Part shown: piece after piece, positions 24,651 to 33,405 of the stretch | Numbering within the stretch: the first letter of the stretch is position 1 | Layout: every line of letters begins with the position of its first letter | NCBI GenBank assembly: GCA_003209565.1 | Contig: QCQK01000004.1 | Span: 26,518 to 90,517, forward strand | Reading direction: 5' to 3' | Source: Prochlorococcus sp. AG-449-J16 | Lineage (GTDB): Bacteria > Cyanobacteriota > Cyanobacteriia > PCC-6307 > Cyanobiaceae | Length of the DNA stretch: 64,000 bases | Notes under the pieces: generated by a model | Told to the model about the DNA's origin: nothing | Databases searched by the model: none | What the model saw: the letters and a program-made list of their open reading frames with translations, nothing else | Made by a program: the position numbers and the translations under genes

Positions 24651-24775
24651 CTTTAATAAGTAATAATCATTAATATTCTAAATAAAATTTCTAGCAAAAG
24701 AACCCATCTAGAAATTCTTATTAACTAAATAATATGGAAAAAAATATTTTGATTGTTTAGGCCATTACATTCAGA

Positions 24776-24781
24776 TATAAT
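24776..24781 (+). promoter_or_regulatory. perfect TATAAT -10 hexamer upstream of truncated tRNA-Arg 5' half
   Basis: TATAAT 8 nt before the start of the tRNA-derived repeat at 24790. Confidence 0.5.
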
Positions 24782-24789
24782 AATCAAAT

Positions 24790-24829
24790 GCTTCCTTAGC
24801 TCAGCTGGATAGAGCAACTGCCTTCTAAG
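24790..24829 (+). repeat. attL-like truncated tRNA-Arg 5' half (40 bp)
   Basis: GCTTCCTTAGCTCAGCTGGATAGAGCAACTGCCTTCTAAG identical to first 40 nt of tRNA at 33332. Confidence 0.95.
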
Positions 24830-24920
24830 AAAATCCAACAACATCTACAGAATCAAGTAATAGCTTAAACAACATTAGTTATACCAACGGATTATAAGAA
24901 AATAACATATAAAAACAATA

Positions 24921-24954
24921 GGTTATTATTTGTGATTATTGGTTATTATTTGTG
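24921..24954 (+). repeat. tandem 14-bp direct repeat GGTTATTATTTGTG (x2, 20-bp period)
   Basis: copies at 24921-24934 and 24941-24954. Confidence 0.85.
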
Positions 24955-24956
24955 TT

Positions 24957-24980
24957 CTGAGTGACCAACTGAGTGACCAA
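24957..24980 (+). repeat. left arm-type repeat CTGAGTGACCA-A-CTGAGTGACCAA
   Basis: same 24-bp unit with one mismatch at 33290-33313. Confidence 0.9.
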
Positions 24981-25041: not shown

Positions 25042-26298
25042 TTGGCAAATCTACTTGAGTGGGAAAAAAGATTAAAACAGGCTGTTGCACAACAACACAA
25101 AATAGGTTGGTCTGTGCGTGAAAAAAGGGGTAAATGTTTAATTCAGCGGTATTGGAAAGATACAGGAACTTATGAAAGGAAGGTAATTCCTGTTGAATGG
25201 GAATCAGATCAACTACTAAACATTCTTAATTCATTAAACAAAATTAGTGAATTAATGGTTAATACAAAATGTACTCTTGCTGAAGCAACAAAGATAATAT
25301 TTCCAGAAAATAAAAATACACCAAATACTAACTGGTCATATTTAAAAGATGAATATAAAAAATACAAAGAAGAAACTAAAAATATAAGTTCAACAACTTG
25401 GAATGGTGTTTACATGGTTACGTTAAAAAGAATTATAGAAATGATGAATGGTGATAATCCACCAAACTCAGGAAAGGGAATTTTAAAAGAACTTCAAAAA
25501 GATAGTAAAGGTAAATTAACTGTAAGCAAGGGCAGGGTTAAAAGAATAGAAACAGGTAAAACTTTTCTTGAATGGTGTGTTTATAGAAAAGGATTAAATG
25601 AACGCTGGTTACCACCACCACAAATTGAAATTAAAGAACTAAAAGCTTCTGGTGCTAGAAAAGATGATTCTAATAATTCTGGTAAGGCAGAAAGAATTGA
25701 AGATGACCAACTATTGATACTGTTAGATTCTTTTGCTGATACACCTACAGGCAGATCATGGAGACTAGCAACTGGTCTGTTAATCACATTTGGAATACGT
25801 TGTGTTGAATTAAAATATTGCAGACCAAAAGATAGTTTACTTGTAATTGATTACAGCAAGGTAAGCAGTAAAGGATCAACTAAACCAAGAGAAGTTGAAG
25901 GTTTAAGTCCAGCTGGAAGACCACATCTACATGAAGAACTACTATTGGAATTATCATCAGGTATTACAGCCCTGCCTTCCCTAGGTAGTCAAAATAGGCA
26001 CGCAGCAAGATCATTTATTAGAGCATTGCAAAGAACTTCAACTAATACTTATTGGAAGAAATTAGAAGCAGATGCAGCAGCAGTTGGTAAAAAGATTTCA
26101 ACTTATTCCATGCGTCATGCCTACTGTTTTAGAGGTGCAGTACTAGGTGATCTTAGTGCAGACTTTTTAGCGGAAAATATGGGTCACAGTTTGCAAACTC
26201 ACCTGAAAGATTACCGAGACTTTTATTTAGGAAAAGAGAAAAAGGCAAAATTTGCAGCAGCTAGACAAAAATTATCACTAGAATCTTACAAATTGTAA
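25042..26298 (+). CDS. int: Tyrosine recombinase / integrase of the element
   Basis: TTG start; catalytic pattern GIRCVELKY, HAARSF, STYSMRHAYCFRG, NMGHSLQTHLKDYRDFYLG; adjacent to attL. Confidence 0.88.
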   Translation: MANLLEWEKRLKQAVAQQHKIGWSVREKRGKCLIQRYWKDTGTYERKVIPVEWESDQLLNILNSLNKISELMVNTKCTLAEATKIIFPENKNTPNTNWSYLKDEYKKYKEETKNISSTTWNGVYMVTLKRIIEMMNGDNPPNSGKGILKELQKDSKGKLTVSKGRVKRIETGKTFLEWCVYRKGLNERWLPPPQIEIKELKASGARKDDSNNSGKAERIEDDQLLILLDSFADTPTGRSWRLATGLLITFGIRCVELKYCRPKDSLLVIDYSKVSSKGSTKPREVEGLSPAGRPHLHEELLLELSSGITALPSLGSQNRHAARSFIRALQRTSTNTYWKKLEADAAAVGKKISTYSMRHAYCFRGAVLGDLSADFLAENMGHSLQTHLKDYRDFYLGKEKKAKFAAARQKLSLESYKL

Positions 26299-26529: not shown

Positions 26530-26760
26530 ATGAGTAATTCAGATAAAGAATATTGGGTAACAACTACTGAAGCTATGAAGATATTGAATGTTACTAGGCA
26601 AAGATTATGTAGATATTGGTGTGATAAAGAAAAAGGTTTTTTAATTGAAGGTAAACATTGGAAGAAAGGAATGTATTTTAATACCACTAGATATTTTGAG
26701 ATAAACCGCTGCAAGGCAACAGTTATGAAACAAGGTTATATGTTAGTTAATAGTGCATAA
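26530..26760 (+). CDS. excisionase/AlpA-like small DNA-binding protein
   Basis: WVTTTEAMKILNVTRQRLCRYW wHTH; position after integrase. Confidence 0.6.
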   Translation: MSNSDKEYWVTTTEAMKILNVTRQRLCRYWCDKEKGFLIEGKHWKKGMYFNTTRYFEINRCKATVMKQGYMLVNSA

Positions 26761-27208: not shown

Positions 27209-27646
27209 ATGAACAAATTATTTGAAACAAGGTACGGAAAAGAAATATTTGAAATGAAACCTAATCTGCCAAAAGCAGGGGTTACATGTGAACACTACAT
27301 TACTGACTACAACACCAAGAAGTCTTTTTACTATTGGTTGGGTGAGTTTAACGAGCTAAAGGAAGCAGGGCATGTATTCAATGGTGCAGATGAACTGAGA
27401 ATACAGTTTTTAAATCTTCCAGCTGAAGTAAGGCAATGTATCCATGAAAGGATATTTGGGGTTGGTTGGACTTATCAAGGTACAAAGAAAAGTCTTTATC
27501 TAGCTGCTGTAGCAAGTTTTAAACCAAAGTCTATTTTACTTTCGTCTGTATATTCAACAGCTGTCTATAACAATGAAAGTGAAACAACTTACAAGTTCAA
27601 AGAACAGACTTTTTTAAACAACATTAGAAAAGGATATTTCAAATAG
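27209..27646 (+). CDS. hypothetical element protein
   Basis: ORF whose stop overlaps the start of the primase-helicase gene. Confidence 0.6.
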   Translation: MNKLFETRYGKEIFEMKPNLPKAGVTCEHYITDYNTKKSFYYWLGEFNELKEAGHVFNGADELRIQFLNLPAEVRQCIHERIFGVGWTYQGTKKSLYLAAVASFKPKSILLSSVYSTAVYNNESETTYKFKEQTFLNNIRKGYFK

Positions 27647-30192
27647 TGGTAGTTACACCTGTAGTTAAACCAGTTACTGAAACTGTTAAACCAGATCAGT
27701 TAATAGACACAACAGAAGCAAATAAGATGTTGCGGTTACTGGGTGTTGGTTTAACTGATGGTGTAATAATTTGCTGCTATGGAGAAACTAATAAGTACTT
27801 TCCTAAGCGTGCAAGGAACAGAAACTACAACTGGGCTGAAGTAAAACTACTAGCTCGTGATGGTAACAGGGCAAGATTATTTGAACAGGCAGAAAAAGCC
27901 CTGCGTGATCCTAAAACAAATAGTTTAGGCTGGATTACTTCCCCAGGCGGTTCAGCTAAGAAAGGGAGAAAAGAAGTTACTGTTGGAAATTTACTTGTAT
28001 ATGAAATTGATGGTGAATCATTAGAGCATCAATGGAAAGCATGGGAAGATGCACACCTTCCAAAACCAACAATGGTTCTTTTTACAGGTGGGAAATCTTA
28101 TCACGTTTACTACAGGCTAGATAATTATTATCCAATTAAAACTATTGAAATTTGGCGTAAAAGGTTAAGTCAAACAATATTTAACTGGACTGGTTTTACA
28201 ACAGACCATGCAATGCACAATGCGGTGCAACCATGCCGATTAGCTGGCGGAATACACCCCAAGACTGGCGAAAGATCAAGAATAGTAGAAGAAAGTGGTG
28301 CAATATATAGTCAACGTGAAGTAGAAAGTTTTTTAGATCCACTTGAAGAAGAAGAAAAAGAAGTTGGTATTGGTGCAGGGTTTTTATGGAGACCTGATGC
28401 TGAAGGTGAAACTATAGATGTAAGTGATTATCCAAGTGCTAAGGATCTTATAAATGTTGAATTACCTGTTGAGTTAGCAGTATCACCAAAAACAATGAAT
28501 GTTATTAATACAGGTCTTAAGAGTGGTTGTAAGGGTAATAGATATACAAAGGCACATAGTATTAGTCAGACATTACAGGCAGGCAGAAAGCAGTTAGAGG
28601 ATCTTGACTACAAAGTAATAGAAGGTGATGTTGAAAGACTCTACACAAAGTACTGTACTAATTCTGATTTATACGAAAGTGATATTAAAAGGTGTTTTGA
28701 TAGACATTTTGAACCTTATGGTTCAGGCAACATGACTTGCGGTGAATTTTCAAAAGTTTATTTAAAAAGAAGAATTGCCAAATATTGCAAAGAAAAGGGT
28801 TATTGGGAGAAAAATATAAAAAGTAGTGCTGTTACAACTGCTGATAAAAAAGATGATTCTGTTATTAATTTAGTTCTTCCTACTGGTACAGAAGTTGAAG
28901 TAGAAAATACTGTTGTTAGTACTTATAAGTTCTTCCTTGAGTATGTAGCAACTGTTGTTATGGAAGAAAAGAACATGCTTAGAAGATATGTCTATATAAG
29001 GTATGTAAAAGACCAATTAAAACTAAAACATGTAAAAGATAACGAGTTAGCAGGGCTGATAATGGAAAATCAAGATGTAATCATGGGTAATACTTTTAGA
29101 CCAATTTATGCAGAAGAAAGAATTAAAAATGAAGTACCTAAAGTTGAATGGGTAATAGAAGGTTTTTTACCAGAACATGACGCAACTTTAGTAAGTGGTC
29201 AGGCAAAAACAGGCAAAACTAGGTTAATAGTTCAACTATGTAAATCAATACTAAAAAAGCAAATATTTTTAAATTATCCAGCACCAAGTAAGTCTAGAAA
29301 AGTAATACTGATAAGTGATGACCAATCTTATGCAGATACCGCTGAAATGCTGTTGAAGGCTGGCATTTACCACCATGAAGACTTAATCATATCTGAAAAA
29401 TTTAGGCTTACTACAGACCAGTTAGACGAGGTTTTAAAACTTATAAGAATTTATCCAGATGCAATAGTAATTTTTGATTCTTTAAGGTCAATTACTGTAT
29501 CAAGTTCTGTAGAAGAAAATAATTCTTTGATGGGCATGCTGCTATACGATTTGAAGAATCAATGTATTAAAGCTCAATCAACTTTACTGGTAATACATCA
29601 TGCAAATAGATCAAATAATGTAGGTGTTCAATCTGTTTCTGGTCATGGATCAATTAGTGGTGCATGTAATACCATCATCACAATGCACTACTTACAAGAT
29701 GAAAGTAATAAAGATATTAAGAATACTAGAAGTAGAAGATTAGTAAGAGAAGCACGTTCAGGTCAGCCTGCCGATATGGTTGTTGAACTTGATGTTGATA
29801 CATCATCTGTTCACTACTCAATAGATTTTGATGATTATGAACTACAAGAAGAAAAAGCTAAAGAACAGGAAAAACTAAACAAGATATCAATTAAAGAACA
29901 TACTTTTTTAAGTGCAATGCTGGAATGGTCAACTAAGCATGGTACAGCTGCAACTATTATTGAATTAATGAAAGAAGCTAACCTTTGCAGGGCTAACATC
30001 AAAAGAAAAGAATTTAATAAAACAGAAAATAATACTTATACAGCTATTGGTAAGAAAGTGCATCAGCTGGTCATTGCTAAGTACATCAATGAAATTAGTG
30101 ATACATCAGGTGTTATTGGATCTGGTAGAAGAAAGTTTTATAGCTTAACTGAGTCAGGCAAGGATTTTGTTGAACGTCTTGATAGCTTTTGA
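27646..30192 (+). CDS. primase-helicase (N-terminal prim-pol-like domain plus RepA-type AAA ATPase)
   Basis: LLVYEIDGESLEHQWKAWEDAHLPKPTMVLFTGGKSYHVYYRL primase-like; LVSGQAKTGKTRLIVQL Walker A; AIVIFDSLRSI Walker B; LLVIHHANRS. Confidence 0.8.
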   Translation: MVVTPVVKPVTETVKPDQLIDTTEANKMLRLLGVGLTDGVIICCYGETNKYFPKRARNRNYNWAEVKLLARDGNRARLFEQAEKALRDPKTNSLGWITSPGGSAKKGRKEVTVGNLLVYEIDGESLEHQWKAWEDAHLPKPTMVLFTGGKSYHVYYRLDNYYPIKTIEIWRKRLSQTIFNWTGFTTDHAMHNAVQPCRLAGGIHPKTGERSRIVEESGAIYSQREVESFLDPLEEEEKEVGIGAGFLWRPDAEGETIDVSDYPSAKDLINVELPVELAVSPKTMNVINTGLKSGCKGNRYTKAHSISQTLQAGRKQLEDLDYKVIEGDVERLYTKYCTNSDLYESDIKRCFDRHFEPYGSGNMTCGEFSKVYLKRRIAKYCKEKGYWEKNIKSSAVTTADKKDDSVINLVLPTGTEVEVENTVVSTYKFFLEYVATVVMEEKNMLRRYVYIRYVKDQLKLKHVKDNELAGLIMENQDVIMGNTFRPIYAEERIKNEVPKVEWVIEGFLPEHDATLVSGQAKTGKTRLIVQLCKSILKKQIFLNYPAPSKSRKVILISDDQSYADTAEMLLKAGIYHHEDLIISEKFRLTTDQLDEVLKLIRIYPDAIVIFDSLRSITVSSSVEENNSLMGMLLYDLKNQCIKAQSTLLVIHHANRSNNVGVQSVSGHGSISGACNTIITMHYLQDESNKDIKNTRSRRLVREARSGQPADMVVELDVDTSSVHYSIDFDDYELQEEKAKEQEKLNKISIKEHTFLSAMLEWSTKHGTAATIIELMKEANLCRANIKRKEFNKTENNTYTAIGKKVHQLVIAKYINEISDTSGVIGSGRRKFYSLTESGKDFVERLDSF

Positions 30193-30539: not shown

Positions 30540-30586
30540 CGGCCTTTATAGAGAAAATCGGCCTTTAATAGTTGGCGGCCTTTATA
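30540..30586 (+). repeat. three spaced direct repeats CGGCCTTTATA / CGGCCTTTAATA / CGGCCTTTATA
   Basis: copies at 30540, 30559, 30576. Confidence 0.8.
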
Positions 30587-31202
30587 AGACACCTACAGCA
30601 GCGTGTAAGTCTTGTTCTGAAACACCTAAGTAAAATTCCAAAGTTCTAATGTTTGAATGACCGCTGATTTTGCAAATCACGTCTAAAGGTATGCCCTGCC
30701 TTTTCATTTCTGTTAGAACGCTTCTACGAAAAGTATGTGTTGCAATATCACCAAAAGGAGAATACTTCCGTAGTGCTTTATCGAAAGATTGACGTTTTAA
30801 ATGACTATTTGGAAATCTTCCTTTAAAAATAAATTCTTCATCACTTTCTGGTTTTGTATGTTGCTTCCATAAGTCCAATTCAAGTTTTAATTTATTGCAT
30901 ATTGGTAAAGGTCTACTTCTATCGGTTTTAGTATCAGTTTTTGGAAGCATTAAAATCCTTCCGTTGTAATTCTTCCATTTAGATTTAGCTGCTTCAGTAC
31001 ATCTTGCACCTGTAAAACGTAAAAGAGTAGCTAAAACTTTATGTGATGAATAAGGTATTGAATCTATTAGTTCATCTAGTTCATCTGGATAAAGAATCCT
31101 AGCTGAACCATATCCGTTAAGTGTCATAGCATTTGAGTTGTTAAATGTAATTAAAAGAGTGTTTAACCAGCAGCTGTAGCAGTCCAGTTGCTGATTTACC
31201 AC
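30582..31202 (-). CDS. second, catalytic-domain-only tyrosine recombinase
   Basis: RFTGARCTEAAKSKW, THTFRRSVLTEM, ISGHSNIRTLEFYLG = R...HxxR...H...Y; only about 180 aa from likely start MTLNGYG. Confidence 0.85.
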   Translation of the reverse strand: MVNQQLDCYSCWLNTLLITFNNSNAMTLNGYGSARILYPDELDELIDSIPYSSHKVLATLLRFTGARCTEAAKSKWKNYNGRILMLPKTDTKTDRSRPLPICNKLKLELDLWKQHTKPESDEEFIFKGRFPNSHLKRQSFDKALRKYSPFGDIATHTFRRSVLTEMKRQGIPLDVICKISGHSNIRTLEFYLGVSEQDLHAAVGVL

Positions 31203-32233: not shown

Positions 32234-32372
32234 GAAACTAAAGAAAGAACTACAAGATCAATTAGAAGTTTGTGAATACAAACTAAGGTGTGAACTGGAA
32301 TATTTTAGGAAAGAAGTACAACCACTAAAAGAAGAACAAAGACAGTTACTAGATAGATTATCTGAACTATGA
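32226..32372 (+). CDS. small predicted coiled-coil protein (48 aa)
   Basis: Manually read GTG ORF VSKKLKKELQDQLEVCEYKLRCELEYFRKEVQPLKEEQRQLLDRLSEL; overlaps stop of 31778-32233 and ATGA-overlaps next gene. Confidence 0.6.
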   Translation: MSKKLKKELQDQLEVCEYKLRCELEYFRKEVQPLKEEQRQLLDRLSEL

Positions 32373-32803
32373 CTATTACAGCTGGTAGACCAACAAGAAA
32401 TGAAAGTTTAGTACCACCAAAGGTATTTACTGCACTTGCATTGGTTGCTACTGGTACAAGTTTTGAAAAGGCAGCTGAAACTGTATCAATGACTGGTAAA
32501 GCATTGCGAAAGTGGAGAAGCCACAAAGATGTAAAAGATTATCTAGAAGAAATACCAAGAGAGAATATTGATATTGGTACAAATCTTTTAGCAAGTAGAA
32601 ATCATTTATATATGAAAAAATTAGATGAAATAATAATGAATCCAAATACATCTGACTACAACAGAATTGATGCAATAAAAGCAGCCCACATGATCCAGAA
32701 AGAAAATGTATTAGACCGACAGCAAAATAGAAAATTAAATGAAATTAGAGAAATATTGATAGCTAAAGATGCAGGTAGAACTATAGATATTACCAATAGA
32801 TAA
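32369..32803 (+). CDS. HTH protein, candidate phage terminase small-subunit-like
   Basis: GTSFEKAAETVSMTGKALRKWRSHKDVKDYL HTH plus ...YNRIDAIKAAHMIQKENVL; size and layout TerS-like. Confidence 0.45.
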   Translation: MTITAGRPTRNESLVPPKVFTALALVATGTSFEKAAETVSMTGKALRKWRSHKDVKDYLEEIPRENIDIGTNLLASRNHLYMKKLDEIIMNPNTSDYNRIDAIKAAHMIQKENVLDRQQNRKLNEIREILIAKDAGRTIDITNR

Positions 32804-33152: not shown

Positions 33153-33289
33153 TTTTATACATATATATATAGAGTATTTAATTTTAAAAATTTACTGGTG
33201 TGTGGTGCAGGGCTGATATAAAATAGGAAGGTTATAAATCGAACTGTTAAAAGTGTGATTTATTTCACGTTTTTCAAGCGATTTGTTAT

Positions 33290-33313
33290 CTGAGTGACCA
33301 GCTGAGTGACCAA
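33290..33313 (+). repeat. right arm-type repeat CTGAGTGACCA-G-CTGAGTGACCAA
   Basis: pairs with 24957-24980. Confidence 0.9.

Positions 33314-33331: not shown

Positions 33332-33405
<74 letters not shown>

Follow-up and report, generated by a model that had tools for sequence, protein, structure and literature searches.

Paired direct repeats at both ends of a Prochlorococcus integrative element as likely arm-type sites of its own tyrosine integrase

An 8.5-kb integrative element lies between positions 24830 and 33371 of the window (the whole 64-kb stretch of Prochlorococcus DNA analysed here), at tRNA-Arg(UCU), whose gene is referred to as tRNA-Arg(TCT). Two pairs of the form CTGAGTGACCA-N-CTGAGTGACCA, identical in orientation, are present in the window sequence at 24957-24979 and 33290-33312, and the four CTGAGTGACCA copies, two per side of the core, are almost certainly arm-type sites for the N-domain of the integrase (25042-26298) that the element itself encodes. 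A previous sequence-only reading of the same DNA suggested that the layout is that of the P and P' arm sites of a tyrosine integrase. At the level of sequence, this suggestion is supported by a motif confined to the element ends, by tandems throughout the integrase family, by matching motifs at the two ends, and by covariation of the motif with the integrase N-domain. While arm-site layouts of this kind are already known from phage lambda and mycobacteriophages, the new points here, as far as the literature shows, are the covariation across a whole family and the probable promoter block that is retained. The hosts concerned are the ocean's most abundant photosynthetic organisms.

The 24-mers that contain the pairs, located by exact match, are CTGAGTGACCAACTGAGTGACCAA on the left (24957-24980) and CTGAGTGACCAGCTGAGTGACCAA on the right (33290-33313). 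The individual copies, recognized from the sequence, are as follows.

24957..24967, + strand: arm-type site, left pair, copy 1 (CTGAGTGACCA)
24969..24979, + strand: arm-type site, left pair, copy 2 (period 12 bp)
33290..33300, + strand: arm-type site, right pair, copy 1 (CTGAGTGACCA)
33302..33312, + strand: arm-type site, right pair, copy 2 (period 12 bp), kept in AG-402-N08 and in G215, a genome of another genus

Both pairs are non-coding: the left one has a tRNA fragment on one side and int, whose start at 25042 is 61 bp downstream, on the other, and the right one is located between the last open reading frame and the tRNA. Both lie inside the element ends, at 127 bp (left) and 18 bp (right) from the cores. 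The matched, directly oriented, noncoding 24-bp repeats and their asymmetric spacing (about 127 and 18 bp) had thus been described correctly by the sequence-only reading, with sequence and coordinates exact. About 33 bp around the pairs are common to both ends, with 88% identity. The exact 11-mer occurs four times in 64 kb, versus ~0.03 expected for a given 11-mer on both strands. Across the entire draft genome of 1.32 Mb, the 23-mer pattern, with up to three mismatches allowed, was found at the two window places only, and a reversed version of it, searched as a control, gave no match. Another repeat adjoins the left pair.

24918..24954, + strand: pair of 17-nt near-repeats, A(T/A)(A/T)GGTTATTATTTGTG, beside the left arm pair and also present in AG-402-N08

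These near-repeats contain GGTTAT, and an AGGTTAT is found at 33228-33234, after a block near the right end that is described below; both might possibly be sites of an excisionase or of an accessory or DNA-bending protein.

The att cores of the element are a 40-bp perfect repeat that corresponds to positions 1-40 of tRNA-Arg(TCT), located at 24790-24829 and 33332-33371.

24790..24829, + strand: attL core, a 5' fragment (1-40) of tRNA-Arg(TCT), 100% identical to 33332-33371
33332..33405, + strand: intact tRNA-Arg(TCT), consisting of an element-derived 5' half (33332-33371, the attR core) and a host 3' half
24822..24828, + strand: predicted 7-bp crossover, left copy, at the anticodon loop CTTCTAA, flanked in attB by the anticodon-stem sequences ACTGC and GCAGT
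33364..33370, + strand: predicted crossover, right copy (anticodon loop)

An intact tRNA at one end, a fragment at the other, and an unoccupied site in relatives are the marks of a tRNA-targeting element; at loci L134, L136 and L138, the site is unoccupied and consists of a single tRNA between the two flanking genes. The element belongs to the rare type that leaves a 5' fragment, as do 159 of the 3919 tDNA islands in Islander (PMC4383910); this feature was not noticed in the sequence-only reading. Like the 5'-fragment islands of Islander, it has an intact tRNA at one end and the 5' fragment at the other, and probably uses the anticodon-loop (A) subsite. In contrast, integrase relatives at L037 and L038, which occupy the same tRNA-Arg(TCT), are of the 3'-fragment type, with the 3' part of the tRNA common to their ends. 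The 5'-type block (positions 1-40) and these 3'-type blocks overlap at the anticodon arm, an overlap that places the crossover most likely in the tRNA-Arg anticodon loop. Measured from the predicted crossover, a better yardstick than the core edges, the right pair is ~50 bp away and the left pair 128 bp. A 33-bp portion of the element's tRNA part (33339-33371) recurs without mismatch in the tRNA-Arg genes of several Synechococcus phages, among them syn9 and S-RSM4.

The principal genes of the element are listed below.

25042..26298, + strand: tyrosine integrase of 418 aa, with an N-domain at residues 1-56 and conserved catalytic R253, K273, R358, H382 and Y391
26530..26760, + strand: small HTH_17-like protein, a candidate excisionase or directionality factor (weak HTH_17 match, E 0.035)
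27646..30192, + strand: primase/helicase-like replication protein (AAA_25 and primase/helicase PHROGs; distant matches to phage RepA and prim-pol)
30582..31202, - strand: second tyrosine recombinase of 206 aa, catalytic domain only (Phage_integrase, E 6.7e-20; XerA-like)
32369..32803, + strand: small terminase subunit-like protein, a packaging function and satellite trait (phrog_3802, E 6e-5; phrog_7344, E 1e-4)

An integrase, a replication protein and a small terminase subunit (the last a weak match, E 6e-5) are present together without structural genes, and this gene set appears to be that of a phage satellite (PICI/VEIME-like). The quoted criteria for tycheposons are a length of 4-200 kb, a tRNA border and a tyrosine recombinase (PMC10872708). 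On these quoted criteria alone, the element, with its 8.5 kb, tRNA-Arg border and tyrosine recombinase, resembles the tycheposons of Prochlorococcus; it differs from them in carrying terminase-like and primase genes and no obvious nutrient cargo.

Searches of Pfam, PHROG and NCBIfam profiles gave no match for the integrase, and no close match was found in phage records. A picocyanobacterial integrase family that is missed by standard profiles was reported at tRNA-Phe and tRNA-Cys (PMC10187409). Compared by description only, the window integrase is similar in being a picocyanobacterial tyrosine integrase beside a tRNA that such profiles miss, and dissimilar in residing at tRNA-Arg. Judged by its sequence, it is a tyrosine recombinase, with R-K-(H/Y)xxR-H-Y in a C-terminal catalytic domain: R253, K273, YxxR358, GH382 and Y391 are invariant across 29 relatives, 13 of which match PF00589. 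In structure comparison, the predicted fold resembles lambda Int, Cre and Tn1549 Int, with lambda Int (1z1b) as the best match in the PDB. The AlphaFold model (29-sequence alignment, pTM 0.54) gives the N-domain three strands and a helix (E23-28, E31-38, E43-52 and H55-75; pLDDT ~88-94). Three strands and a helix constitute the fold of arm-binding domains (PMC8138268), and the N-terminus, as modelled, fits it.

The pattern was sought in picocyanobacterial genomes as well. With two or fewer mismatches, it occurred at five places in 398 family genomes, all of them at the ends of such elements or at the matching position: two in the window, two in Prochlorococcus sp. AG-402-N08 and one in another genus. 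At the same tRNA, AG-402-N08 has a copy of the element with a 94% identical integrase and all four 11-mers intact, and the host sequences on either side have diverged much further than the element itself. The place in the other genus (G215:C22) is 19 bp 5' of tRNA-Arg(TCT) and is adjoined by a terminase-gene remnant. Since the pattern is restricted to these five ends or positions, the sites are specific to this kind of element. With two places in the 1.32-Mb genome and five in the family, the motif is far from common genome-wide; the sequence-only reading had named a motif that is common genome-wide and not associated with related integrases as an outcome contrary to its claim. Its further proposal, that the motif can be used to find relatives, holds for close relatives and fails for diverged ones, whose sites differ in sequence. 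In AG-402-N08, part of the second recombinase gene (30582-31202) shows a weaker DNA match (~73%). At L132 (G215:C22, 10653-12094), the window-type arm pair and the terminase remnant are on the 5' side of tRNA-Arg(TCT), and a different integrase with its own repeats (TTCTGCACCAAAATATGCACCA) is on the 3' side; this tRNA gene is apparently used by two kinds of element.

A search with the window integrase found relatives in 323 of the 398 genomes, and stretches around ~75 of them, which gave 84 integrase loci, were surveyed. At most loci, a tandem of a 9-11-bp motif is present between the att core and int, and the motif varies from element to element (TTCCGTGCA, TTTACGCTA, TTCTGCGCCCA, TTTGGCGCACA and others). 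Among 54 integrase clusters of no more than 70% identity, tandems upstream of int had a period of 12 in 32 clusters, 11 in 21, and 10 in 14. In shuffled upstream regions, each shuffle gave a period-12 tandem in about one cluster, with a maximum of 4. In a control region farther upstream (850-1100 bp; n=48), tandems of periods 12, 11 and 10 were present in 6, 2 and 0 cases, respectively. Under a stricter score, a strong tandem (score of at least 8, period 10-13 bp) was found upstream of int in 83% of 78 distinct integrases, against backgrounds of 0.8% (shuffled) and 5.6% (control region). A minority of the relatives have no clear tandem.

The motifs at the two ends of an element also match. For 14 non-redundant elements in which both cores were found, ungapped match scoring of proximal against distal arms in direct orientation gave a sum of 191 for arms of the same element and 110 +/- 9 for permuted arms (p<=1e-5). 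In inverted orientation, the match was much weaker (127, against a background of ~105). Arms of one element match better than swapped arms do, and the end motifs therefore change together over 8-17 kb. Moreover, motif similarity follows the integrase N-domain. With catalytic identity held constant, its partial rank correlation with identity over residues 1-56 was 0.28 (partial Mantel, p<=0.001; the permutation p was 0.0005, and 0.001 in a rerun with fewer permutations), whereas the catalytic domain had no effect once the N-domain was taken into account (r 0.03, p=0.25). A common motif is present in each of the 32 pairs of integrases whose N-domains are at least 70% identical (mean score 23.8); conversely, most of the 65 pairs with catalytic domains at least 65% identical and N-domains below 55% are without one (mean 6.4). 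L053/12593 and L101, for instance, are 85% identical in the catalytic domain and 49% in the N-domain. Because the N-domain coding sequence adjoins the left arm, linkage was tested. The effect of flanking DNA was weaker (r 0.10), and the motif effect remained at 0.27 after control for the flank or the neighbouring linker. Thus, linkage contributes to the covariation, but it does not account for the distal arms, which lie at a distance of 8-17 kb. Dozens of picocyanobacterial integrases may accordingly hold a recognition code in which the arm motif can be read beside the gene and specificity appears to track ~56 residues. They form a natural series of domain variants for studying how arm-binding domains read DNA, and their arm motifs offer a practical means of mapping the ends of integrative elements, including those with integrases that standard profiles miss.

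Read along the circular form, the right pair would be followed after ~50 bp by the crossover in the anticodon loop, then after 128 bp by the left pair, and finally by int, with all sites in one orientation. Each integrase protomer would place its N-domain on an arm site and its core-binding and catalytic domains on a core site, and such bridging of arm and core could build an intasome of the lambda type, in which attP is joined to the tRNA-Arg(UCU) anticodon stem-loop. The small HTH protein beside int would be the likely directionality factor. Sites, layout, conservation, occurrence throughout the family, and the match of ends and N-domain come from sequence; from these we infer binding, stoichiometry, the exact crossover and the role of the HTH protein.

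The arrangement resembles the P and P' arms of phage lambda, with short direct repeats in both arms and asymmetric distances to the core, and the integrase, like lambda Int, has predicted arm-binding, core-binding and catalytic domains. As in lambda-type systems, one motif occurs in both arms flanking the core, with equivalent placement across related integrases. The reverse complement, TGGTCACTCAG, resembles the lambda arm consensus, with GTCACT in common, a likeness on which no conclusion here draws. Unlike lambda, the element has a period of 12 bp, two sites per arm, an integrase with no sequence-family match, and a crossover that presumably falls in a tRNA anticodon loop. In mycobacteriophages CrimD, Giles and L5, attP contains two pairs of ~11-bp predicted arm sites around the common core, and differences in the arms were matched to differences in the N-domain within close relatives (PMC3203893). 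The paired sites are direct in Giles and L5, as in the window, while the second pair of CrimD is inverted (PMC3203893). The present case differs in that the hosts are unrelated to those of the mycobacteriophages and the comparison of N-domain and arm spans a whole family.

That the repeats bind the excisionase or directionality factor (the HTH_17-like protein, 26530-26760) or a host architectural protein, rather than the integrase, is unlikely. Phage Xis sites are also found in att arms and can be tandem direct repeats, and the small HTH protein, which adjoins int in the window and has a homolog that adjoins an integrase in G215, could use the same sites. However, each element has a pair in either arm, and the sequence of the pairs tracks the integrase N-domain. 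A host protein would be expected to read one motif throughout, yet the motifs differ by element.

A purely regulatory function, in which the left pair would be an int operator and the right pair part of the promoter or leader of tRNA-Arg, with no role in recombination, is very unlikely. It draws on the position of the left pair upstream of int and on that of the right pair, which lies between the tRNA and a probable promoter.

33205..33225, + strand: right-end block GTGCAGGGCTGATATAAAATA, predicted from comparative sequence to be an element-supplied promoter of tRNA-Arg(TCT)

The block (GTGCAGGGCTGNTNTAAAATA) has 18 matches in 200 genomes of the genus, one per genome in 18, and all 18 are 96-127 bp 5' of tRNA-Arg(TCT) on the same strand. 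As the pattern GTGCAGGGCTG[AT]T[AT]TAAAATA (loci L200-L217), it is confined to the 5' side of this gene. This distribution suggests that the block is probably a replacement promoter for tRNA-Arg(TCT), a role likewise overlooked in the sequence-only reading, while a strict sigma-70 consensus scan called neither the block nor the native tRNA promoter described below. The block is largely unchanged at L210, L215 and L217, three loci with an altered or single-copy arm pair. The block thus persists at L215 and L217, in stretches with no sign of an element, although one arm copy is lost or degraded, so that expression of the tRNA does not need both copies. Furthermore, relatives have the motif in common at both ends, 8-17 kb apart, even though their distal end does not lie upstream of int. 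As arm-type sites, the repeats may still have int autoregulation as a second role, by analogy with KplE1 intS (PMC2951348).

Iterons are short direct repeats, and the element encodes a primase/helicase-like protein, but it is highly improbable that the repeats serve replication of the circular form, given only two copies per end around the att core, like placement of other motifs in relatives, and a motif that follows the integrase N-domain. Chance or a recent, functionless duplication of the ends, to which the ~33 bp of common sequence might be ascribed, is hardly credible when the pair is kept in two species and another genus and tandems of the same design, unrelated in sequence, occur in most relatives.

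The element restores the 5' half of the tRNA, and the tRNA gene therefore loses its native promoter.

24753..24781, + strand: native host promoter of tRNA-Arg(TCT), TTGTTT-17-TATAAT, no longer adjoining the intact tRNA and now directed at int

A sequence of the TTGTTT...TATAAT type immediately precedes the single tRNA where the site is unoccupied in other Prochlorococcus genomes (30 of 46 surveyed); TATAAT is present in all of these promoters and TTGTTT in most, and L134, L136 and L138 have the same two flanking genes. We tentatively suggest that the element might trade promoters with its host: it would detach tRNA-Arg(UCU) from the native promoter, left reading into int, and supply its own; the arm sites in the tRNA leader would couple integrase binding or excision to tRNA expression; and the new promoter would stay after loss of the element. 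If so, an essential tRNA is expressed in some lineages from a promoter that came with the element. At several block loci, the left host gene is located ~105-130 bp away from the block, and the ~3-kb stretches around these blocks gave no match to the integrase, terminase or 31778-32233 proteins. Block loci without matched element genes are likely promoter scars, and persistence of the block without the element suggests that such elements can have a lasting effect on how an essential tRNA gene is controlled. At L154, L156 and L157, another non-native sequence (GAGAGGTGCTTGGGTGATATAA...), common to the three genomes, is located upstream of tRNA-Arg(TCT), and is perhaps the scar of another element.
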